From Erysipelotrichaceae bacterium (GTDB taxonomy: Bacteria > Bacillota_I > Bacilli_A > RFN20 > CAG-449), in contig SVBA01000007.1 in the NCBI GenBank assembly GCA_015059095.1, positions 1-64,000 on the forward strand: DNA of 64,000 nucleotides. Reading direction: 5' to 3'. The notes beneath the pieces are model-generated. The model made no database searches, was not told where the DNA came from, and was given only the letters and a program-made list of their open reading frames with translations. Positions 30,323 to 63,623 of this stretch are shown here, in pieces. The first letter of the stretch is position 1; every line of letters starts with the position of its first letter. The position numbers were made by a program, and so were the translations under genes.

Positions 30323-32503
30323 CTATTCACTATAAGTCCAAGTACCAACTGGATACTTGCCTTGAGAATTTTTACCATCACTAACATAATAACCTTGATT
30401 ATTTCCTACACCAACTAAAGAAATATCTACGGTTTGTTGATTACCATTATTTACAGAGAAAATAATTGAATCGTATTTTGATAAATCTACATCTATTGTA
30501 TAAATACTTTGACCATAACTATTTGTATGAGAATATTTCATTGCTTCTCCTGGCCAATTGGATTTAATAGAATCAGTAGACTCATTCCAAATATAAGCAT
30601 AAGGAGTATAAGTTTTCCAAGAATCTCTACTATTAGTAAAATAAATTGTAATTGTTTTAACAATTTCACTAACATATACATGTCTAGAACTTCCTTGATT
30701 TGTCCATAATTTATCTTCTGAAAAATAAATAGAGTATTCTGCTTCTTTAGAAATAGTAAATGTTTCATAAACTATCTTCTTATCTAAAGATACAATCTTA
30801 TAAGTTCCGCTTTTCAAATTAATATTTTTTAATTCATATTCATAGAAATCATAATTATCATAATTCCAAATTAATCCATCAATTACAGTGTTACTACTAT
30901 TTATTAAGTAGTAATAATCTCTAGTATAAATGTCACTAGGATAATTCCATTTTGGATAGAATACCACATTTTCATTAACTGTATATGGGAATGTAACCTT
31001 ATTTTTAAGTCCTGGTTCTAAATACCATCCACCAAAAGTTCTTATTCCATCACCTTCTAAAGTAATAGAATTGATTTTACTTCCTTTTTCTACTTTAGTA
31101 GAACCTTGGCTAGATTCTAAAAAATAAACATACGCATATCTATCTTCTTCATTTTCTTCAAGTACATAATTAATATTAGCTTTAGGAATACTCCAAGAAG
31201 ATTTTATTCCATTTTCATAAACACTTCTAACTGAAATATGACTAGATTTATTAAGTGTAATTGAATTAGAACTAGTTTCAACAACATTTCCATTATCTAT
31301 AACTACTTCATACTTAATCGCATTATTATCTTTTTCCCAAGTTGCAGTATTTGAAGTATTATCAATATTTACTATAGGAGTTTTAATATTATTACTATTT
31401 TGTAATCTATTTAAATAAGATAAACCAGTATTAGTAGATTGAACAGTTAATCCATGAACATTTTCTGAATATTGATGCTCTAACGAGAAATAAATCTTAT
31501 ATGTTCCATCAGATTTAATTTTAAAATCTTCTCCATTATTCTTCCAATATGTTCTACCTGGATTATCATCAAATCCATCCATAATCAAAAAGTATGCTGG
31601 ATCAGCTTCACTTGCTCCACTAACCGTAACAGTAGTATAAAATTCTTTAAAACTTGATTGTCCTTCATTAACCTTTAAAGGAATAAATCTCCAACCAGAA
31701 CTAGAAGTAGTACTACTAATTATTGAACTAGATATTTTTGGAGATGCTTTAACCCAGAAATAAGTATCTTTAATTAAATTATTAGGAATATAGTTTGCAT
31801 AAATAACAGTTTTTCCTTCAATAGGTTTAGAAAAGTCAAACTTATTTTGATAGAAAGGATCTTCATACCAATCATCAAAAGTATAATTTTCTTTACTAGG
31901 ATTACTTGGTTTAGTAACTGTATTTCCAGTTTTAATAGTAACACTATTTAAATTTGTATTATGGAAATATACTTTTACATCTTTTTCTTCTTTAATTACT
32001 ATGTCACTAGTATCATAATAAGTTAACGCTTTAGAAAACTCACTACAAGAACTATCATTAGTAGATTGAACACTAACATTTTCTTTATCTTTTAATTGGA
32101 TAGTGGTTGAACTAGTAGTCAATACTTCACCATCATTAATAATATAGTTGTATGCTATCGCGCCATCAACTTCATCCCAAGATACAACACCAGTTTCTTC
32201 ATTGATTTGAACTATTGGTGTATCTAATTTAATAATTTCTTCTTCACTACTAGAGGAACTATCTTCAAAAGAAGCTCCACTTGAAATCTCTTCATTAGAA
32301 CTACCATTTGAAGAAGAATCTTCACTTGAGCTCTCTTCATTAGAACTACCGTTTGAAGAAGAATCTTCACTTATAAAATCGTTGCTACTTTCAACTAAAC
32401 TACTAGATGAACTATTTTCACTGGAATTTAATTCGCTAGAAGGATTAGAACATCCAATTAATAAAAAAGTCAACAAAACACCAATTATTGCAGTTTTTTT
32501 CAT
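30323..32503 (-). CDS. Surface lipoprotein with InlB-type and starch-binding domains
   Basis: A 726-residue lipoprotein with lipobox LIGC (Cys18) and a long Ser/Glu-rich linker (about 22-90) that lifts the domains off the cell. It has two InlB/List-Bact beta-grasp repeats (GYTFDDWYEDP-like near 205-250 and FGGWYLEPG near 480-520), a beta-sandwich region between them, and a C-terminal CBM26-like module (about 615-726: TPYAYIWNES, NWPGEAM, GYYVSDG). No catalytic motif. It probably captures starch or another alpha-glucan at the surface and works with the amylase at 11570-14050. First gene of the operon with alkaline phosphatase. Confidence 0.78.
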   Translation of the reverse strand: MKKTAIIGVLLTFLLIGCSNPSSELNSSENSSSSSLVESSNDFISEDSSSNGSSNEESSSEDSSSNGSSNEEISSGASFEDSSSSSEEEIIKLDTPIVQINEETGVVSWDEVDGAIAYNYIINDGEVLTTSSTTIQLKDKENVSVQSTNDSSCSEFSKALTYYDTSDIVIKEEKDVKVYFHNTNLNSVTIKTGNTVTKPSNPSKENYTFDDWYEDPFYQNKFDFSKPIEGKTVIYANYIPNNLIKDTYFWVKASPKISSSIISSTTSSSGWRFIPLKVNEGQSSFKEFYTTVTVSGASEADPAYFLIMDGFDDNPGRTYWKNNGEDFKIKSDGTYKIYFSLEHQYSENVHGLTVQSTNTGLSYLNRLQNSNNIKTPIVNIDNTSNTATWEKDNNAIKYEVVIDNGNVVETSSNSITLNKSSHISVRSVYENGIKSSWSIPKANINYVLEENEEDRYAYVYFLESSQGSTKVEKGSKINSITLEGDGIRTFGGWYLEPGLKNKVTFPYTVNENVVFYPKWNYPSDIYTRDYYYLINSSNTVIDGLIWNYDNYDFYEYELKNINLKSGTYKIVSLDKKIVYETFTISKEAEYSIYFSEDKLWTNQGSSRHVYVSEIVKTITIYFTNSRDSWKTYTPYAYIWNESTDSIKSNWPGEAMKYSHTNSYGQSIYTIDVDLSKYDSIIFSVNNGNQQTVDISLVGVGNNQGYYVSDGKNSQGKYPVGTWTYSE

Positions 32504-36876: not shown

Positions 36877-37755
36877 ATGAAACTAAAAGGTCTACTAACA
36901 CTAAAAGATTTATCTACAAAATCCATTATGGATATAATTTCCTATTCTTTAGATATCAAAAACGGGTTGAGTGTCTCTTATTCAAACAAGAGATTCGCAA
37001 CCCTTTTTTTTGAGAACTCTACAAGAACTCATTATTCATTCATTATGGCATTAAAAAAATTAGGAATCGATGTAATTGATTGTAATGTAGGAGTTTCTTC
37101 CGTTCAAAAAGGAGAATCGCTATATGATACAATTAAAACTTTTGAATCTATTGGAGTTGATGGAGTAGTTGTTAGACACACTAAAGATGAATATTTTAAA
37201 GAATTAGAAGGAATCAATATTCCAGTTTTTAATGGCGGAGATGGAAAATCAAATCATCCTACTCAATCATTACTAGATTTAATGACCATCTATGAAGAAT
37301 ATGGAAAATTTGAAGGATTAAAATGTTGTATTATTGGTGATATATCGCATTCAAGAGTTGCCCATACAAATATCGAAGTTATGGAAAGACTAGGAATGGA
37401 AGTATATATTTCTGGACCAGAAGAATTTAACGATGGATCTGCTAAATACTTAGATTTAGATACTGCAATTGAAGAAATGGATGTCATTATGCTACTAAGA
37501 GTACAATTTGAAAGACATACAGAATCAATGTCAATGACCAAAGAAGAATATCATTCTCGTTATGGACTAACTATGGATAAAGTAGAAAAAATGAAAGAAA
37601 ATGCAATCATTCTACACCCTGCACCATTTAATAGAGAAGTTGAAATTGCTTCTAGTGTTGTTGAATGTAGTAAATCAAGAATATTTAAACAAATGACAAA
37701 TGGAGTTTATGTCCGTATGGCATCGATCTCTATGGTATTGGATGGTAAGTTATGA
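36877..37755 (+). CDS. pyrB: Aspartate carbamoyltransferase catalytic chain
   Basis: 292 residues; condenses carbamoyl phosphate and aspartate to N-carbamoyl-aspartate. Carbamoyl-phosphate loop FENSTRTHYSF, mobile-loop Ser/Lys in SSVQKGESLYDT, VVRHT, DGKSNHPTQSLLDL, GDISHSRVAH and LLRVQFERH are all intact. A regulatory PyrI is absent, as in other Bacillota. First gene of an eight-gene operon, with TTAGGAGG ribosome site; its TGA stop overlaps the pyrC ATG. Confidence 0.95.
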   Translation: MKLKGLLTLKDLSTKSIMDIISYSLDIKNGLSVSYSNKRFATLFFENSTRTHYSFIMALKKLGIDVIDCNVGVSSVQKGESLYDTIKTFESIGVDGVVVRHTKDEYFKELEGINIPVFNGGDGKSNHPTQSLLDLMTIYEEYGKFEGLKCCIIGDISHSRVAHTNIEVMERLGMEVYISGPEEFNDGSAKYLDLDTAIEEMDVIMLLRVQFERHTESMSMTKEEYHSRYGLTMDKVEKMKENAIILHPAPFNREVEIASSVVECSKSRIFKQMTNGVYVRMASISMVLDGKL

Positions 37756-38951
37756 TTTTAAGAAACGGTTATATTTTATTAGACAATAAATTAGTAAGAA
37801 AAGATATTGAAATTACTAATGGAATAATCACTAAAATTGAAGATTCTATTGATTGTAAAGAATATATCGATTGTAAAGAGGGTTGGATAATTGAAGGAGC
37901 AGTTGATGTTCACGTTCATTTAAGAGAGCCAGGATTCACTCATAAAGAAACAATTCTTTCAGGAACAAAAGCAAGTGCAAAAGGCGGAGTTACAACTATT
38001 ATGTCGATGCCTAATCTTAAACCATGCCCTGATTCAATTGAAAATTTAAAAGTACAAGAAGATATCATTGCTAGAGATGCTCAAGTTCACGTTTATCCTT
38101 ATGCTGCAGTTACTAAAGGTCAATTAGGACAAGAAAATTCTGATTTAGAATCTTTATGTAAAAAAGTTAAAGCAATTACAGATGATGGAGTTGGAGTAAA
38201 TAACATTGACTTATTAATTAAAGCGATGGAATATGCAAAAAAATACAATATTGTAATCGCAAGTCATGCTGAAGACTTAGTAGATTCAAAATTACCTCAA
38301 GGGGAATATGTAGCAGTCAGAAGAGAAATCGAACTAGCAAAACAAATTGGTTGTAAATATCACTTCTGTCATATGTCCACTAAAGAATCATTCGATGCTA
38401 TTAGACAAGCACATAAAGAAGGATACACAAATATTACTTGTGAAGTTTCACCTCATCATCTTTTACTAAATGAAAATATGATTAAAGATGCAAATTGGAA
38501 AATGAATCCTCCTTTAAGAAGTGAAGAAAATAGAAAAGAAACTATTAAGGCCCTATTAGATGGAACTGCTCTTATGATTGCTTCAGATCATGCTCCACAT
38601 GCAAAAGAAGAAAAAGAACAAGAATATTCTAAAGCTCCAAATGGAATTATTGGAATAGAAACTATGCTTCCACTTATCTATACTCACTTTGTAGATAAAG
38701 GAATCGCTACTCATTCAGATTTTTTAAACTGGTTTGTTTATAATCCAATTAAAGTATTCTCTCTTCCTGAAAGAAAACTAGAAGTAGGCTATCCAGGAGA
38801 TTTAACAGTTTTAGATATAAATACACTAAGAAAATATACAAAAGAAGAAATTCTTTCATTAAGTACAAACTCTCCATATATCGATATGGAAATGAAAGGA
38901 TTCCCTCTATTAACATTAGTAAATGGAAAAATTGTTTGGGAGGTTAAATAA
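37752..38951 (+). CDS. pyrC: Dihydroorotase (class I)
   Basis: 399 residues; cyclises carbamoyl-aspartate to dihydroorotate. Metal ligands in DVHVHLREPG, SHAEDL, HFCHMST and the catalytic Asp in ASDHAPHAKEEK. The length fits the Bacillus class I enzyme. The start overlaps the pyrB stop by 4 nt (ATGA) and carA starts immediately after its stop. Confidence 0.95.
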   Translation: MILRNGYILLDNKLVRKDIEITNGIITKIEDSIDCKEYIDCKEGWIIEGAVDVHVHLREPGFTHKETILSGTKASAKGGVTTIMSMPNLKPCPDSIENLKVQEDIIARDAQVHVYPYAAVTKGQLGQENSDLESLCKKVKAITDDGVGVNNIDLLIKAMEYAKKYNIVIASHAEDLVDSKLPQGEYVAVRREIELAKQIGCKYHFCHMSTKESFDAIRQAHKEGYTNITCEVSPHHLLLNENMIKDANWKMNPPLRSEENRKETIKALLDGTALMIASDHAPHAKEEKEQEYSKAPNGIIGIETMLPLIYTHFVDKGIATHSDFLNWFVYNPIKVFSLPERKLEVGYPGDLTVLDINTLRKYTKEEILSLSTNSPYIDMEMKGFPLLTLVNGKIVWEVK

Positions 38952-40001
38952 ATGAAATTAATTTTGGAAAATGGAAAAGTATATTCCGGTCTAAATTTCG
39001 GATCAAATGAAAAGAAAATAGGTGAATTATGCTTTGTAACTTCAATGGTAGGTTATCAAGATATATTATCTGATCCTTCATACTATGGAAAAATTGTTTG
39101 TATGTCATATCCTCTAATTGGTAACTATGGTTTATCTGATGATGATTATGATTTCAAAAACATTCATGTCAGAGGTTATGTAGTAAAAGAAAATAATGAT
39201 TTACCTTCTAACTTTAGATCAACTAGAACTCTATCCGAAGCAATGGAAGAAAATCATGTAACAGGTATTCAAGGTATTGACACTAGAGAGTTAGTAAAAT
39301 TGCTAAGAGATCAAGGTTTACAAAAGGCGATGATCACTTCTGATGAAGATGATTTAGAATCTTGTTTAAAAGAATTAAAAGAATATCAAGAAGTAGAAAA
39401 TCAAGTAGAACAAGTTTCTTGTAAAAAGATTTGGTATAGTAGAACAACTAATCCAATTAAAACTCTTGTAATTGTTGATTTAGGTATTAAAACATCTTTA
39501 GTAAAATATCTAAATAGTTATGGATTGAATATTATTGTTGTTCCATATAACACAACTTTAGAACAAATAAAAAGATTAAAACCAAATGGAATTATTATTT
39601 CAAATGGTCCTGGTAATCCTAACTACTATAAAGAAATTATCTCATTAATTAATGAGATAAAAGGTACTTATCCTCTATTAGGATTAGGTTTAGGATCACA
39701 ATTAATCGCATTAAGTTATGGTGCAGAAGTCACAAAAATGAAACATGGACATCAAGGAAGTAACTTCCCAATTAGAAATGTTTCCCTAGATAAAATAGAA
39801 ATCGGTTCACAAAATCATTTCTATTCAATTAAATTAAACAATATTAAAGAATTACAAATAACTCATGAAAATGTTTTAGATAGAGATGTTGAAGGATTTA
39901 TCGACCCCAAAAATGAAGTAATAGGAATTCAATACTTAATCCAAGAAACATTAAATAAAGACGAAGATGTAGTCTCTAACTTCATCAAATTATTAAAATA
40001 G
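38952..40001 (+). CDS. carA: Carbamoyl-phosphate synthase small subunit, glutaminase triad lost
   Basis: 349 residues and clearly CarA: an intact N-terminal domain (VTSMVGYQDILSDPSYYGKIV, GIDTREL) and a class I glutaminase fold (SNGPGNP, GHQGSNFP, SQNH). But the nucleophile elbow, normally GICLGHQ, reads GLGLGSQ, so Cys is Gly246; and the C-terminal QYHPEA reads QYLIQE, so the catalytic His and Glu are Leu329 and Gln331. The subunit cannot hydrolyse glutamine and probably only supports CarB, which would then use free ammonia. Codons checked directly (39687-39689 GGT; 39936-39938 TTA). It lies between pyrC and carB with tight spacing. Confidence 0.93.
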   Translation: MKLILENGKVYSGLNFGSNEKKIGELCFVTSMVGYQDILSDPSYYGKIVCMSYPLIGNYGLSDDDYDFKNIHVRGYVVKENNDLPSNFRSTRTLSEAMEENHVTGIQGIDTRELVKLLRDQGLQKAMITSDEDDLESCLKELKEYQEVENQVEQVSCKKIWYSRTTNPIKTLVIVDLGIKTSLVKYLNSYGLNIIVVPYNTTLEQIKRLKPNGIIISNGPGNPNYYKEIISLINEIKGTYPLLGLGLGSQLIALSYGAEVTKMKHGHQGSNFPIRNVSLDKIEIGSQNHFYSIKLNNIKELQITHENVLDRDVEGFIDPKNEVIGIQYLIQETLNKDEDVVSNFIKLLK

Positions 40002-40012
40002 GAGGAATCAAT

Positions 40013-43000
40013 ATGCCAAGAAGAACAGACATTAAAAAAATCATGGTAATTGGTTCAGGTCCTATTATCATTGGTCAAGCAGCAGAATTTGATTATGCTG
40101 GTACTCAAGCTTGTCTAGCATTAAAAGAAGAAGGATATAAAGTAATTTTAGTAAACTCTAATCCTGCGACAATTATGACTGACACAAAAATTGCAGATAA
40201 AATCTACATGGAACCATTAGATTTGGAACATGTCGCAAAAATTATTCGTTATGAAAGACCTGATGGATTAATTTGTTCAATGGGTGGACAAACTGGTCTT
40301 AATTTAGGTATGCAACTACATACAAAAGGTATTTTAGAAGAATGTCATGTAGAATTATTAGGAACATCATTTGATGCAATTAATAAAGCAGAAGACAGAG
40401 AAGCATTTAAAGATTTATGTTTAGAAATTGGAGAACCAATAATCGAATCAGAAATTGCTACTACATTAGAAGAAACAATCGCAGCAGCAGAAAAAATTGG
40501 TTATCCTATCATCTTAAGACCAGCATTTACTTTAGGTGGTACTGGTGGAGGTTTTGCAGACAACCTTGAAGAATTAATTCCACTTGCTAAAAACGCATTA
40601 AAGTTATCACCAGTAAGCCAAGTATTAGTAGAAAAATCAATTAAAGGCTATAAAGAAATCGAATTTGAAGTAATTAGAGATAAAAACGATACTGCTCTAG
40701 CAGTATGCTCAATGGAAAATGTCGATCCAGTCGGCATCCATACTGGTGATAGTATCGTAGTTGCTCCTTCTCAAACATTAAATACCAAAGAATATTCAAT
40801 GTTAAGAAATGCAGCCTTAAAAATCATTAAAGCATTAAAAATTGAAGGTGGATGTAATGTTCAATTCTCTTTAGATCCTCTTTCATTTAAATATTATGTT
40901 ATCGAAGTTAACCCTAGAGTTTCTAGATCATCTGCTTTAGCTTCTAAAGCAAGTGGTTTTCCTATCGCTCGAGTAAGTGCAAAAATTGCATGTGGATTAA
41001 GACTTGATGAAATTAAAATTTCCTCTACTTATGCATGTTTTGAACCAACTATTGACTATATAGTTGCTAAACTTCCTAGATTCCCATTTGATAAATTTGC
41101 TGATGCAAATAGAAGTTTATCTACTCAAATGAAAGCAACTGGCGAAGTAATGGCAATTGGTCGTACTTTCGAAGAAGCTCTATTAAAAGGCGTTAGATCA
41201 TTAGAAAATAAAGTTGACCATTTAGAAATTCCTCACTTTAAAAATAAAACAGTAGAAGAATTATTAAATATCATTTCTGAACACACTGATGAAAGACTAT
41301 ATGCTATTGCAGAAGCATTAAGACTAGGTGCAACAGTAGATGAAATTTATGACTTAACAAAGATTGATAGATTCTTCTTAGATAAGATTGTAAATATATT
41401 AAATATTGAAAATGAAGTTAAAGAAAATCATTGGGATTTAAAAATATTTAAAAAGGCTAAAGCTAATGGCTTTAGTGATTCATATTTAGCGAAAATCTAT
41501 GGTGTAACTCCTGTTGAAATCTATAATTTTAGAAAAGAAAATAACATCTATCCAGTATATAAATTTATTGATACATGTGCAGGAGAATTTGATTCATATG
41601 TTCCTTATTTTTATTCAACATATGAAAATCAAAATGAATCTATTAGAACAGATAAAAAGAAAATTGTTGTACTAGGTTCAGGACCAATTAGAATTGGCCA
41701 AGGTGTTGAATTTGATTACACTACTGTACATGCTATTTGGGGAATTAGTGAAAAAGGTTATGAAGCTATCATCATTAATAATAACCCAGAAACTGTTTCT
41801 ACAGACTATACGGTTTCAGATAAATTATACTTTGAACCATTAACATTTGAAGATGTAATGAATGTTATCGATTTCGAAAAGCCAGAAGGTGTTGTAGTTG
41901 CTTTAGGTGGTCAAACTGCGATTAACTTAGCATCTAAACTAGATAAAGCAGGAATTAAAATTTTTGGTTCTTCATCTCAATCAATTGACCTAGCAGAAGA
42001 TAGAGACTTATTTGAAAAAGCTATGGAAGAAATTAATATTCCAATGCCAAAAGGTTATGGAGTCTATACATTAGAAGAAGCATTAAATGCCGCTAGAGAA
42101 ATTACTTACCCTGTTCTAGTAAGACCTTCATTTGTATTAGGCGGAAGAATGATGCACATTGTTTATGATGAAGAAGATTTAAGAATCAAAGTTCAAGAAG
42201 CTCTAAACTTTGATAATGAACACCCTATCTTAATAGATAAATACATCTCCGGACAAGAATGTGAAGTAGATGCGATTTGTGATGGAGAAAATGTATTTAT
42301 TCCAGGTATTATGGAACATATCGAAAAAACAGGCGTTCACTCAGGTGACTCAATGAGTGTCTACCCTCCATATTCACTATCTCAAAAAGTTATCGATACA
42401 ATTATTGACTATACAACTAGAATCGGTATTAAACTTCAAATGATTGGTTTATTTAATATTCAATTCATTGTAGATAGTAAAGACAATGTTTACATTATTG
42501 AAGTAAATCCTCGTTCTTCAAGAACTGTGCCATTCTTAGGTAAATCAACAGGATACCCTATTGCAAATATTGCTACTAAAGTAATGCTTGGGGATAAATT
42601 AAAAGATTTAGGTTACGTAGGATTAGGTGAAAAACGTAAAAGATGGTATGTTAAGTCGCCTACTTTCTCATTCTCAAAGATTCATGGAATGGATGTAGTA
42701 TTATCTCCAGAAATGAAATCAACTGGTGAAGCAATTGGTTATGATTATTCTTTAAATAGAGCTTTATATAAATCTTTAAGAGCATCTGGACTAAGAGTAT
42801 CTAACTATGGAACAATTTTTGTAAGTGTTTCGAATAAAGAAAAAGAAAATATTCTACCAATTGTTAGAAGATTCTATGATTTAGGTTTCAATATTGAAGC
42901 GACTAAAGGAACTGCTAACTTCTTAAAAGAAAATGGTATCAAAACTAGAATTAAAAAGAAAATCTCTGAAGGATCAGACGAAATCTTGGAATCAATTAAA

Positions 43001-43186
43001 AAAGGATATGTTACTTACGTAATTAATTCTCCAACAACTAATGATTCAGTAAATGATGGAAAATTAATTAGAAGAGCTGCAATTGACAATAACGTTCCTG
43101 TATTCACTTGCTTAGATACAGTTAGAGTATTATTAGATGTATTAGAAGAAATCACTATGAAGATTTCAGTCATTGATGAGGAGTAA
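40013..43186 (+). CDS. carB: Carbamoyl-phosphate synthase large subunit
   Basis: 1057 residues with the two-fold ATP-grasp architecture: the N-terminal carboxyphosphate half (MVIGSGPIIIGQAAEFDYAG, MGGQTGLNL), oligomerisation region (~400-550), and the carbamate-phosphorylating half beginning VVLGSGPIRIGQGVEFDY, followed by the allosteric MGS-like domain (~935-1057). Both halves look intact. It makes carbamoyl phosphate from bicarbonate, 2 ATP and ammonia. As the partner CarA has lost its glutaminase triad, ammonia should come directly from the cytoplasm. Confidence 0.96.
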   Translation: MPRRTDIKKIMVIGSGPIIIGQAAEFDYAGTQACLALKEEGYKVILVNSNPATIMTDTKIADKIYMEPLDLEHVAKIIRYERPDGLICSMGGQTGLNLGMQLHTKGILEECHVELLGTSFDAINKAEDREAFKDLCLEIGEPIIESEIATTLEETIAAAEKIGYPIILRPAFTLGGTGGGFADNLEELIPLAKNALKLSPVSQVLVEKSIKGYKEIEFEVIRDKNDTALAVCSMENVDPVGIHTGDSIVVAPSQTLNTKEYSMLRNAALKIIKALKIEGGCNVQFSLDPLSFKYYVIEVNPRVSRSSALASKASGFPIARVSAKIACGLRLDEIKISSTYACFEPTIDYIVAKLPRFPFDKFADANRSLSTQMKATGEVMAIGRTFEEALLKGVRSLENKVDHLEIPHFKNKTVEELLNIISEHTDERLYAIAEALRLGATVDEIYDLTKIDRFFLDKIVNILNIENEVKENHWDLKIFKKAKANGFSDSYLAKIYGVTPVEIYNFRKENNIYPVYKFIDTCAGEFDSYVPYFYSTYENQNESIRTDKKKIVVLGSGPIRIGQGVEFDYTTVHAIWGISEKGYEAIIINNNPETVSTDYTVSDKLYFEPLTFEDVMNVIDFEKPEGVVVALGGQTAINLASKLDKAGIKIFGSSSQSIDLAEDRDLFEKAMEEINIPMPKGYGVYTLEEALNAAREITYPVLVRPSFVLGGRMMHIVYDEEDLRIKVQEALNFDNEHPILIDKYISGQECEVDAICDGENVFIPGIMEHIEKTGVHSGDSMSVYPPYSLSQKVIDTIIDYTTRIGIKLQMIGLFNIQFIVDSKDNVYIIEVNPRSSRTVPFLGKSTGYPIANIATKVMLGDKLKDLGYVGLGEKRKRWYVKSPTFSFSKIHGMDVVLSPEMKSTGEAIGYDYSLNRALYKSLRASGLRVSNYGTIFVSVSNKEKENILPIVRRFYDLGFNIEATKGTANFLKENGIKTRIKKKISEGSDEILESIKKGYVTYVINSPTTNDSVNDGKLIRRAAIDNNVPVFTCLDTVRVLLDVLEEITMKISVIDEE

Positions 43187-43189
43187 GCT

Positions 43190-43918
43190 ATGGAAAAAGT
43201 TATATTACAAATTTCATCTAACACTCAAGTTGGAAAAGATGTCTATTTAATGCGACTTGAAGGAGACCTTTCATCAATTAAAAATCCAGGTGAATTTGTC
43301 GAAGTAAAACTAGACAAGTATTATTTAAGAAGACCTATATCAGTATGTGATTATTCTTCAACTCATTTATCTTTATTATATAAAGTTTTAGGAAGAGGAA
43401 CTAAAGATATGTCATCCTTAGAAGTAGGAACTATGTTAGATGTAATCGTAAATTTAGGGAATGGATTCGATACTAGTTTATCGCAAAATCCCCTACTAAT
43501 TGCAGGAGGAATTGGTATTGCTCCAATGATAGGTTTAGCTAAGGAATTCAACTCTAAAGGAATAAAACCTACCCTAATATATGGAGCAGCCAAAAAAGAA
43601 GATATCGTATTACTAAATGAATTAAATAAAATTAGTAATGTAATCATTTGTACAGATGATGGTTCATTAGGATATAAAGGCAATACTGTATCTTACTTAA
43701 AAGAACACAAACTAAATTATGATAAATATTATGCTTGTGGACCTCAAATAATGTTAAAATATCTTGCTCTATTTGATACAAACGGTTATGTGTCTTTAGA
43801 AGCAAGAATGGGTTGTGGTTTTGGAGCATGTATGGGTTGTTCAATAGAAACGACAAATGGTCCAAAAAGAGTTTGTAAAGAAGGACCAGTATTTGAAGCA
43901 AGTGAGGTGATTTTCTAA
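43190..43918 (+). CDS. pyrK: Dihydroorotate dehydrogenase electron-transfer subunit
   Basis: 242 residues: FAD-binding RRPISVCDY, NAD-binding IAGGIGIAPM, and a C-terminal 2Fe-2S site in EARMGCGFGACMGCSIET with a later Cys in RVCKEGPVF. It passes electrons from PyrD to NAD+ and so pairs with the class 1B PyrD encoded next, whose ATG lies at its stop codon. Confidence 0.95.
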   Translation: MEKVILQISSNTQVGKDVYLMRLEGDLSSIKNPGEFVEVKLDKYYLRRPISVCDYSSTHLSLLYKVLGRGTKDMSSLEVGTMLDVIVNLGNGFDTSLSQNPLLIAGGIGIAPMIGLAKEFNSKGIKPTLIYGAAKKEDIVLLNELNKISNVIICTDDGSLGYKGNTVSYLKEHKLNYDKYYACGPQIMLKYLALFDTNGYVSLEARMGCGFGACMGCSIETTNGPKRVCKEGPVFEASEVIF

Positions 43919-44826
43919 TGAGTTTGGAAGTTAAGTTTTTAGGAAAGACATTTAAAAATCCAATTATCCCTGCTTCAGGAACATTTGGATTTGGTTATGA
44001 ATTTGCTTCATTCTATGATATTAATATTTTAGGAAGTATATCATTAAAAGGGACTACTTTAGAACCTAGATATGGTAATCCATTACCTAGAATTGCAGAA
44101 TGTCCTTCTGGATTAGTAAATGCAATTGGATTACAAAATCCAGGAGTTGATAAAGTAGTAAATGAAGAACTACATAAATTAAAAGAAGTCTATTCTGATT
44201 TAGTAATCGCTAATGTTGGTGGACATAGTGTTACTGAATATGTAGAAACATGTAAAAAATTCAATGACGCTGAAACTGTGTTTGCAGTTGAATTAAATAT
44301 TTCTTGCCCTAATGTTAAAGGTGGCGGTATGGCTTTTGGTACAGATCCTGAAGTAGCATCACAATTAGTAAAAGAAGTAAAAAAAGTTTTAAAAAAGCCA
44401 CTTATTGTAAAACTTTCACCAAATGTAACAGACATTGTAAAAATGGCAAAAGCTGTTGAAGAAGCTGGTGCAGATGCAATCAGTTTAATTAACACTTTAG
44501 TTGGTATGAGAATCAACTTAAAAACAGGAGAACCAATCATCTCAATTAAAAAAGGTGGTTATAGTGGACCAGGTATCTTCCCTGTCGCATTAAGAATGGT
44601 ATATGAAGTAAGTCATGCCGTTTCAATTCCAGTAATTGGAATGGGTGGGATTTCAAATGCTTATGATGTACTTGAAATGATGTATGCAGGAGCAAGTTTA
44701 GTCATGGTTGGTGCAGAAAATTTAATTAATCCTTACGCATGTAAAGAGATTATAGATAACTTACCAAAAGTTATGAAAGAATATGGTATTAAAAATTTAC
44801 AAGATATTATAGGGAGGACAAAATAA
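43918..44826 (+). CDS. pyrD: Dihydroorotate dehydrogenase, class 1B catalytic subunit
   Basis: 302 residues; FMN-dependent TIM barrel oxidising dihydroorotate to orotate. Substrate loop NAIGLQNPGVD and catalytic Cys in ELNISCPNVKGGG identify class 1B (Cys base, NAD+ acceptor through PyrK). Overlaps pyrK and pyrF by one base each. Confidence 0.95.
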   Translation: MSLEVKFLGKTFKNPIIPASGTFGFGYEFASFYDINILGSISLKGTTLEPRYGNPLPRIAECPSGLVNAIGLQNPGVDKVVNEELHKLKEVYSDLVIANVGGHSVTEYVETCKKFNDAETVFAVELNISCPNVKGGGMAFGTDPEVASQLVKEVKKVLKKPLIVKLSPNVTDIVKMAKAVEEAGADAISLINTLVGMRINLKTGEPIISIKKGGYSGPGIFPVALRMVYEVSHAVSIPVIGMGGISNAYDVLEMMYAGASLVMVGAENLINPYACKEIIDNLPKVMKEYGIKNLQDIIGRTK

Positions 44827-45515
44827 TGGGAAAAGATGTAATTATTGCTTGTGATTTCAAAAATAAAGAAGAATTATTAAACTTCTTAAAACCTTTCCAA
44901 GGTTTAAATCCATTTTTAAAAATCGGAATGGAAATCTTCTATAAAGAAGGACCACAACTTGTTAGAGAATTAAAAGAACAAGGATGTAAAATCTTCTTAG
45001 ATTTAAAATTACACGATATTCCAAACACAGTAGAAAAAGCTATGCGTAATTTATCTGAATTAGGTGTAGAAATTGTTAACTGTCATGCTGCTGGTGGAAT
45101 TGAAATGATGAAAGCTGCAAGACGTGGTTTAGATGCTACTGAACAAGGCAAAAAATCAGAATTAATCGCGGTTACTCAATTAACTTCAATTTCTCAAGAA
45201 AAATTAGAAAAAGAATTATTAATTGAAAAACCACTACCAGAAGTAGTTAAAACTTATGCATTAAATGCTAAAGCGGCTGGTCTTCAAGGCGTAGTATGTT
45301 CTCCATTAGAAGCGCCAATTATTAAAGAATTAGGATTAATCTCAGTAACTCCAGGAATTAGATTTGCTGATGGTTCTAAAGATGATCAAGTTAGAATCGC
45401 TACTCCAGACTACGCTAAAGAACTAGGTTCTACTTATATTGTAGTTGGAAGAGCTATTACAGGCGCTACTGATCCAGTAGCAGCATACAAACGTTGTGTA
45501 AAGGAGTTTTGTTAA
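44826..45515 (+). CDS. pyrF: Orotidine-5'-phosphate decarboxylase
   Basis: 229 residues; last step to UMP. The catalytic Lys-Asp array is in IFLDLKLHDIPNT, and PGIRFADGSKDDQ and YIVVGRAIT form the phosphate site. Bacterial group 1 enzyme of normal length. Good ribosome site GGGAGG inside the end of pyrD. Confidence 0.95.
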   Translation: MGKDVIIACDFKNKEELLNFLKPFQGLNPFLKIGMEIFYKEGPQLVRELKEQGCKIFLDLKLHDIPNTVEKAMRNLSELGVEIVNCHAAGGIEMMKAARRGLDATEQGKKSELIAVTQLTSISQEKLEKELLIEKPLPEVVKTYALNAKAAGLQGVVCSPLEAPIIKELGLISVTPGIRFADGSKDDQVRIATPDYAKELGSTYIVVGRAITGATDPVAAYKRCVKEFC

Positions 45516-45516
45516 T

Positions 45517-46155
45517 ATGAAAAGTTTAGAAGTAAAAGTAGCAGAAAATTTATTAAAAATTAAAGCGGTTTTCTTAAGACCAAATGAACCATTCACTTGG
45601 GCATCTGGAATTAAATCACCAATCTATTGCGATAATAGATTAACACTATCTTATCCAGAAACTAGAAAAGTAGTTGAAGAAGGGTTAGTTGAAGTAATTA
45701 AAACTTACTACCCTACTTGTGAAGTAATTATGGGTACATCAACTGCAGGTATTCCTCATGCAGCATACGTATCAGCGATCTTAGACTTACCAATGGGTTA
45801 TGTTAGAGGTGGCGCAAAAGATCATGGTAGAGGAAACCAAATTGAAGGTGTTGTTCCAGTTGGCAAAAATGTTGTAGTAATTGAAGACTTAATTTCAACA
45901 GCAGGTTCATCAATTGAAGTAGTAAATATCTTAAGAGAAGCAGGATGTAACGTATTAGGTATTGCATCAATCTTCACATATGGATTAACAAAAGGTACTA
46001 CTCGTTTAGCTGAAGCTAATGTAGAAAATCATTCATTATCTAATTTCGAAGTATTAGCTAAAGTTGCTGCAGAAAACAATTATATTGCAGAAAAAGATTT
46101 AGCTAAAGTATTAAAATTCCAAAAGAATCCTTCTGATCCAAGTTGGATGGAATAA
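45517..46155 (+). CDS. pyrE: Orotate phosphoribosyltransferase
   Basis: 212 residues; adds PRPP to orotate. PRPP motif VVVIEDLISTAGSSIEVV, flexible loop VRGGAKDHGRGNQIEG, and IMGTSTAGIPHAA. Last gene of the operon, after pyrF by one base and before a strong terminator. Confidence 0.95.
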   Translation: MKSLEVKVAENLLKIKAVFLRPNEPFTWASGIKSPIYCDNRLTLSYPETRKVVEEGLVEVIKTYYPTCEVIMGTSTAGIPHAAYVSAILDLPMGYVRGGAKDHGRGNQIEGVVPVGKNVVVIEDLISTAGSSIEVVNILREAGCNVLGIASIFTYGLTKGTTRLAEANVENHSLSNFEVLAKVAAENNYIAEKDLAKVLKFQKNPSDPSWME

Positions 46156-63404: not shown

Positions 63405-63600
63405 CGCACAAAGCGCCATAATATATGTCATCACTCAATAGCTCTCCACTTTTTTCAAAGTGACAGTCAATGACATATTCTGTCATTGCCCAAGAATAGA
63501 TTTAGCAGTCTATCCTTTCGGCCTCTATTCCTTTTTTAAGTAATCATTATCTTTGCTAGATTCATACTTAATACTCTTAATAGAAGCGCCTCTACACGGT
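63405..63600 (-). promoter_or_regulatory. Lysine riboswitch (L-box) aptamer
   Basis: On the minus strand the L-box landmarks appear in order: GTAGAGGCGC, AAGAGTA, GGCCGAAAGGATAG, a hairpin with CTGCTAAATCTATTC, TTGGGCAATGACAG...GTCATTGACTGTCAC, and GGAGAGCTATTG at the 3' side. Boundaries are approximate. With the downstream terminator it makes a transcriptional OFF switch for the ABC transporter. Confidence 0.82.
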
Positions 63601-63623
63601 GAAAATATACGATTTATGTGATT

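Follow-up and report, generated by a model that had tools for sequence, protein, structure and literature searches.

Reviews describe bacterial carbamoyl-phosphate synthase (CPS) as an enzyme that uses glutamine, and one of them names glutamine as the physiological nitrogen donor in E. coli. The E. coli enzyme CarAB (CPS II) consists of two subunits, and its small subunit CarA carries the catalytic triad Cys269/His353/Glu355. In work of Rubino, Nyunoya and Lusty from 1986, site-directed mutagenesis of Cys269 in E. coli CarA reportedly left the nucleophile dead and the use of ammonia by CarB preserved. The E. coli enzyme requires both Cys269 and His353 to hydrolyze glutamine; it favors glutamine as substrate and turns to ammonia only at very high levels, which were judged likely to be physiologically irrelevant (PMC6245113). 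The formation of carbamoyl phosphate from NH3 by E. coli CarB in vivo is stated in a later paper that cites Rubino 1987 for it (PMC3017870), and external ammonia sustains normal activity of an E. coli CPS whose tunnel is blocked (PMC4655335). Among the animal enzymes, vertebrate mitochondrial CPS I (human CPS1, PDB 5dot/6uel) has a glutaminase-like fold without the catalytic Cys and must take free ammonia (PMC4655335). Convergently with the transition from CPS III to CPS I, the CPS III of Alcolapia shifted from glutamine to ammonia via a damaged glutamine site (PMC7657897). No earlier report of a natural triad loss in bacterial CarA was found in the open-access literature, and priority is uncertain.

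Here, we analyzed a carA gene in a stretch of 64,000 nucleotides (the window) from an Erysipelotrichaceae bacterium. The gene (38952–40001, forward strand) encodes 349 amino acids from ATG to TAG without an internal stop, and it is part of a forward-strand operon with the order pyrB-pyrC-carA-carB-pyrK-pyrD-pyrF-pyrE and gaps of −4 to 11 nt. The first gene, pyrB (36877–37755), encodes the aspartate carbamoyltransferase that uses up carbamoyl phosphate (TIGR00670 and NF002032 above cut-off) and overlaps by 4 nt with pyrC (37752–38951), a 399-aa dihydroorotase ORF named by sequence motifs, gene order and homologous operons. The distance is 0 nt from pyrC to carA and 11 nt from carA to carB (40013–43186), which encodes the large synthase subunit, and a Shine-Dalgarno-like GGAGG precedes both carA and carB. 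Downstream follow pyrK (43190–43918), the electron-transfer subunit of dihydroorotate dehydrogenase (PF10418 and PF00175 above cut-off), and three genes whose order matches homologous operons: pyrD (43918–44826; dihydroorotate dehydrogenase, 302 aa), pyrF (44826–45515; orotidine-5'-phosphate decarboxylase, 229 aa) and pyrE (45517–46155; orotate phosphoribosyltransferase, 212 aa). The remaining pyr genes of the operon are full length, and their translations contain motifs which, by eye, we take to be of the active-site type.

The encoded protein has the domain composition of a CarA, with an N-terminal CPSase small chain domain (38958–39335; PF00988, residues 3–128, 158.8 bits) followed by a class-I glutamine amidotransferase (GATase) domain (39468–39935; PF00117, residues 173–328, 108.4 bits), and it passes the cut-offs of both NCBIfam CarA models (NF009475 and TIGR01368). 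As judged by gene adjacency, its putative partner is the CarB encoded immediately downstream, which is complete and retains its catalytic residues. The two-subunit composition and the domain order are those of E. coli CarAB (PDB 1c30, 1jdb), with 31% identity in CarA (structural match) and 1053 bits to 1bxr_A for CarB. The Cys-His-Glu triad that characterizes the glutamine-hydrolyzing CPS II is missing. In the alignment with CarA from E. coli and from two other species of the genus, among them G007 with its intact triad, the nucleophile elbow GICLGHQ has become GLGLGSQ (39681–39701), with Gly246 in place of the Cys (codon GGT at 39687–39689, read from the DNA) and Ser249 in place of the following His, and the tail QYHPES has become QYLIQE (QYLIQ at 39930–39944), with Leu329 replacing the His and Gln331 the Glu. 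Ser249 corresponds to the position of E. coli His272, off the elbow tip, and inspection of the sequence near the elbow revealed no Cys or His. Outside the triad, the pocket residues SNGPG, Gln250 and SQNH are still present. The tail did not arise by a frameshift, as neither alternative frame of carA encodes the HPE motif there and the C-terminal helix is in register. Family profile searches, on which all statements on gene presence and absence in this genome are based, detected no second carA (PF00988) in the 1.76 Mb, 95%-complete and fragmented genome assembly. The replacement of the whole triad, the clean reading frame and the tight operon spacing had all been read from the DNA in an initial annotation, and they stood up to the alignments and to the search for a second gene copy proposed there.

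An AlphaFold2 model of the window CarA (pLDDT 89, pTM 0.90) had its top structural matches in E. coli CarA (TM 0.92, including the C269S structure 1c30) and human CPS1 (TM 0.87), and the protein is predicted to fold well. CarB (NF003671/TIGR01369) shares with 1bxr_A the catalytic arginines and glutamates as well as the ammonia gate, whose residues are named in PMC4655335 and correspond to C232, A251 and A314 in the E. coli numbering counted in this analysis. With a topology fixed according to the operon minus carA, separate branch lengths were estimated for the two CarA domains (N-terminal and GATase) and for CarB. The ratio of the GATase to the CarB branch was 6.1 in the window, 4.6 in another species of its genus (G005) and 7.6 in a Clostridiales CarA (L039) that kept the Cys, lost the tail motif and shares its genome with another, intact carA, as compared to 0.6–2.1 in 13 rows with intact triads. 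The N-terminal domain was mildly accelerated (2.5–3.1 in the triad-damaged rows versus 0.3–2.9 in the intact ones), whereas the CarB branches were ordinary (0.22 for the window, inside the range of the intact rows). Hence, the relaxation is mainly confined to the GATase domain of triad-damaged CarA. In this domain, dN and dS of the window were 0.52 and 1.05 relative to G005 and 0.53 and 2.3 relative to G007, and the identity with G007 was 0.70 at the second and 0.41 at the third codon positions. No stop occurs in its 182 codons, where 108 of the 1638 possible single-base changes would create one. The excess of dS over dN and the better conservation of second than of third codon positions indicate that constraint on the GATase domain is relaxed, but not gone. 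The locus had initially been described as intact apart from the triad; this applies to CarB, the pyr operon and the predicted fold, but not to the GATase domain, which evolved about six times faster than CarB.

The comparison with CPS I drawn in the initial annotation holds, as the window CarA likewise appears to have an inactive glutaminase-like domain without nucleophile. The similarity would concern the way of working only, as suggested by the residues and the work on E. coli, and membership is not claimed. CPS I is a fusion in one chain of some 1500 residues, has a separate origin, requires N-acetylglutamate, serves the urea cycle and has a Ser in place of the Cys, whereas the window CPS has separate carA and carB genes in a pyrimidine operon and replacements at three triad positions. 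The crystallized E. coli CarA C269S complex is a laboratory point mutant; the window shows a natural loss, along with which the entire domain has drifted. Alcolapia CPS III, which the window CPS would resemble in its convergent change of nitrogen source, is an animal enzyme that kept its triad and lost a glutamine-binding residue.

Within the genus, carA was found in 3 of 8 genomes, and in the order in 19 of 279, so that de novo pyrimidine synthesis appears patchy at both levels. The CarA of G007 has an intact triad (GICLGHQ, VQYHPES). In G005, the triad is lost as well, with other residues (GVGIGQE, CQYNPSEN) and in an equally complete pyr operon. GuaA and PyrG of G005 have intact triads, so that the loss in this genome is restricted to CarA; a general loss of amidotransferases was thereby ruled out as an explanation for it. 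The window and G005 joined in the CarA tree in one sampling and were apart in another, while intact rows fell between them in the CarB and operon trees, and an AU test did not reject a joint clade (p = 0.27–0.28). A single and a double loss in the genus both fit the trees. Neither a CTP synthase (PyrG, PF06418) nor a GMP synthase-type GATase (GuaA) was matched in the 95%-complete assembly of the window genome, which could reflect an assembly gap or a true dependence on salvage; CTP synthase was likewise unmatched in G006, and G005 has both enzymes.

Triad-less bacterial CarA had been considered unusual, and this view has to be revised, as Cys-less CarA recur in the class of the window, in the Rikenellaceae and in Porphyromonas. 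Among the 97 other CarA first collected, Cys-less sequences occurred in Alistipes (Ser, Ala), Tidjanibacter (Gly) and the named and cultured Porphyromonas canoris COT-108 OH2762 (L100; Ser, plus a His to Cys change). In these organisms, carA adjoins carB in a pyr operon and no other carA was found in the genome; more generally, it was the sole carA in each Cys-less genome examined (G005/G279, G282, G283, G284, G285). The Alistipes family Rikenellaceae was sampled with 150 genomes, 121 of which were tabulated and 120 classifiable (all but G330). Here, 80 genomes had an intact CarA, 36 had only Cys-less CarA, and in four the Cys was kept without the HPE motif. Entire Cys-less clades in the CarA tree span many Rikenellaceae species. 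The Cys replacements in this sample were Gly (18), Ser (12), Asp (6), and one each of Ala, Asn and Arg. Gly is thus the commonest substitute in this sample and not exceptional, although it had initially been highlighted as more radical than the Ser of CPS I. A DNA pattern for Gly/Ala elbows, applied to a phylum sample of 392 genomes that contained the class of the window only, revealed Cys-less CarA in five further genera of this class, all in complete or nearly complete pyr operons. The CarA tree implies seven changes of the Cys state (6–8 in bootstraps), at least four of which are forced by well-supported branches. The CarB tree, which is free of the CarA acceleration, likewise implies seven, with at least four forced. 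As regain of a lost catalytic Cys is unlikely, most of these changes would be independent losses, and horizontal co-transfer of carA and carB possibly contributes to the pattern.

Some of the surveyed genomes encode other unusual forms. In a member of the genus Porphyromonas (G297, L133), CarA and CarB appear to be fused in one frame of 1455 aa, with a GVGMGHQ elbow (Cys to Gly) and a retained HPE motif, an architecture nearer to CPS I than the two-subunit CPS of the window. Three sequences from the Alistipes family (L240, L250 and L251 from G380, G406 and G397) represent the other Bacteroidales CarA type; they kept the Cys and have QFQID instead of QFHPE, which, as the motifs read, is a second route to triad loss. 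A CarA-like subgroup from the same family (L198, L202, L208, L209, L210, L212) has GVCGGDK-type elbows and SHRG or PHRG instead of GHRG, and may be another non-canonical CarA lineage.

The triad loss in the window CarA is real and not an assembly error. Although the majority of the genomes are uncultured assemblies, in which sequencing or binning could have produced a chimeric or erroneous carA, the divergence is in frame over the whole GATase domain, and the same class of change occurs in the second species of the genus (L005/L037), in the P. canoris strain and in dozens more assemblies, so that we regard an artefact as extremely improbable. We consider it likely that the window carA encodes a pseudo-glutaminase subunit of an ammonia-dependent CPS for pyrimidine synthesis, in which CarA is retained as a structural partner. 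Given that Cys269 and His353 are essential in E. coli, no release of ammonia from glutamine is expected of the window CarA. CarB would then perform all of the chemistry, making carbamoyl phosphate from free ammonia, bicarbonate and two ATP, with NH3 presumably bypassing the old glutaminase site and passing the conserved ammonia gate to the carboxyphosphate site. The continuing constraint on CarA suggests that CarB depends on its small subunit for assembly, stability or coupling. This change, which vertebrate CPS I underwent too, would have arisen several times in host-associated anaerobes. Dependence on free ammonia, as already proposed in the initial annotation, is the best inference that the triad loss, the predicted fold, the operon and the single carA permit. 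The ammonia requirement of E. coli CPS being likely unphysiological, cells of the window type should have either high NH3 or an enzyme of improved affinity. This requirement counts against the interpretation, and so do three further points: related genomes from similar hosts keep the triad, a glutamine synthetase III-like ORF indicates that the organism probably makes glutamine, and a second carA could possibly lie outside the fragmented 95%-complete assembly.

If glutamine were still the donor, another class-I amidotransferase would have to act in trans with CarB, or CarA would need an alternative nucleophile. One other PF00117 protein of the genome (L118) has its Cys/His/Glu-like triad intact, and CarA still has Gln250 and parts of the pocket; however, L118 is encoded on a different contig and has its best NCBIfam matches, below cut-off, in gamma-glutamyl hydrolase types, the elbow offers neither Cys nor His nearby and has Ser249 away from its tip, and G005 and the Bacteroidales cases are Cys-less with no substitute in common, which makes continued use of glutamine very improbable. 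It is unlikely, too, that CarA is a roleless, decaying remnant of a pathway on its way out, with the GATase domain as the first part to go. The patchy distribution of carA and the strong acceleration of the GATase domain would fit such decay, but CarB is not accelerated, no pyr gene is interrupted or truncated, the GATase domain has neither stop nor frameshift and a dN below dS, and Cys-less clades persist across many Rikenellaceae species; moreover, decay of the glutaminase is compatible with a CarA retained for structural reasons. The remaining constraint on the GATase domain and the persistence of SNGPG, Gln250 and SQNH could also point to a repurposed CarA, for example with an allosteric or nitrogen-sensing role, that binds glutamine or another ligand without hydrolysis. 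As this domain evolves fast, no new conserved motif was seen to be common to the dead lineages and the pocket residues vary between them, we deem repurposing highly doubtful.

As for physiological links of the triad loss, searches for glutamine synthetase gave no match in either G005 or P. canoris, but the window genome (GSIII-like) and three Rikenellaceae Cys-less cases did have matches, and its loss was therefore rejected as a general correlate. The ammonium transporter AmtB was not found in any of an initial set of eight Cys-less genomes, and the intact G007 encodes it. In the Rikenellaceae, it occurred in 19 of 80 intact and 0 of 36 lost genomes (Fisher p = 0.0007), the lone AmtB-positive row listed as lost being the unclassifiable G330. 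Among the Rikenellaceae with only the pyr-operon CarA type, AmtB was found in 1 of 27 triad-intact genomes and is nearly always absent from intact and lost genomes alike. The association thus disappeared when the CarA type was held constant, and a link between the losses of AmtB and the triad was rejected as lineage confounding. An adaptation to an ammonia-rich gut, as initially suggested, is compatible with our data and a plausible background of the triad loss, but intact and lost Rikenellaceae genomes of one CarA type cannot be told apart by AmtB, and only some of the Cys-less genomes lack glutamine synthetase.

The window CPS would be a bacterial form of a known type, the ammonia-dependent CPS that carries a pseudo-glutaminase domain, and the triad loss is distributed more widely than initially supposed. 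Dozens of bacterial genomes, including that of a named Porphyromonas strain, would encode a CPS without glutaminase, and an ammonia-only CPS, if true, is a counter-example to the glutamine rule for the bacterial enzyme. Automatic annotation conceals the triad loss, because the window CarA scores above the threshold of a "glutamine-hydrolyzing" NCBIfam model, and metabolic models of gut bacteria would consequently assign the wrong nitrogen source. The triad-less CarA also form a set of natural experiments on the roles of CarA beyond the supply of ammonia and on the requirements of CarB for the use of free ammonia. A broader proposal, which in our estimation could equally well prove right or wrong, is that host-associated Bacilli and Bacteroidales arrived more than once at a CPS that is mostly heterodimeric and uses only ammonia, a convergent counterpart of CPS I, with CarA as a non-catalytic scaffold and CarB tuned to the ammonia levels of gut or mouth.

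Elsewhere in the window, the reverse strand contains a strong lysine riboswitch (63431–63602; Rfam RF00168, 115.7 bits) and a 726-aa lipoprotein-like ORF (30323–32503). The product of this ORF is very rich in Ser and Glu along an N-terminal stretch, contains repeat-like segments and is perhaps a secreted carbohydrate-binding protein.
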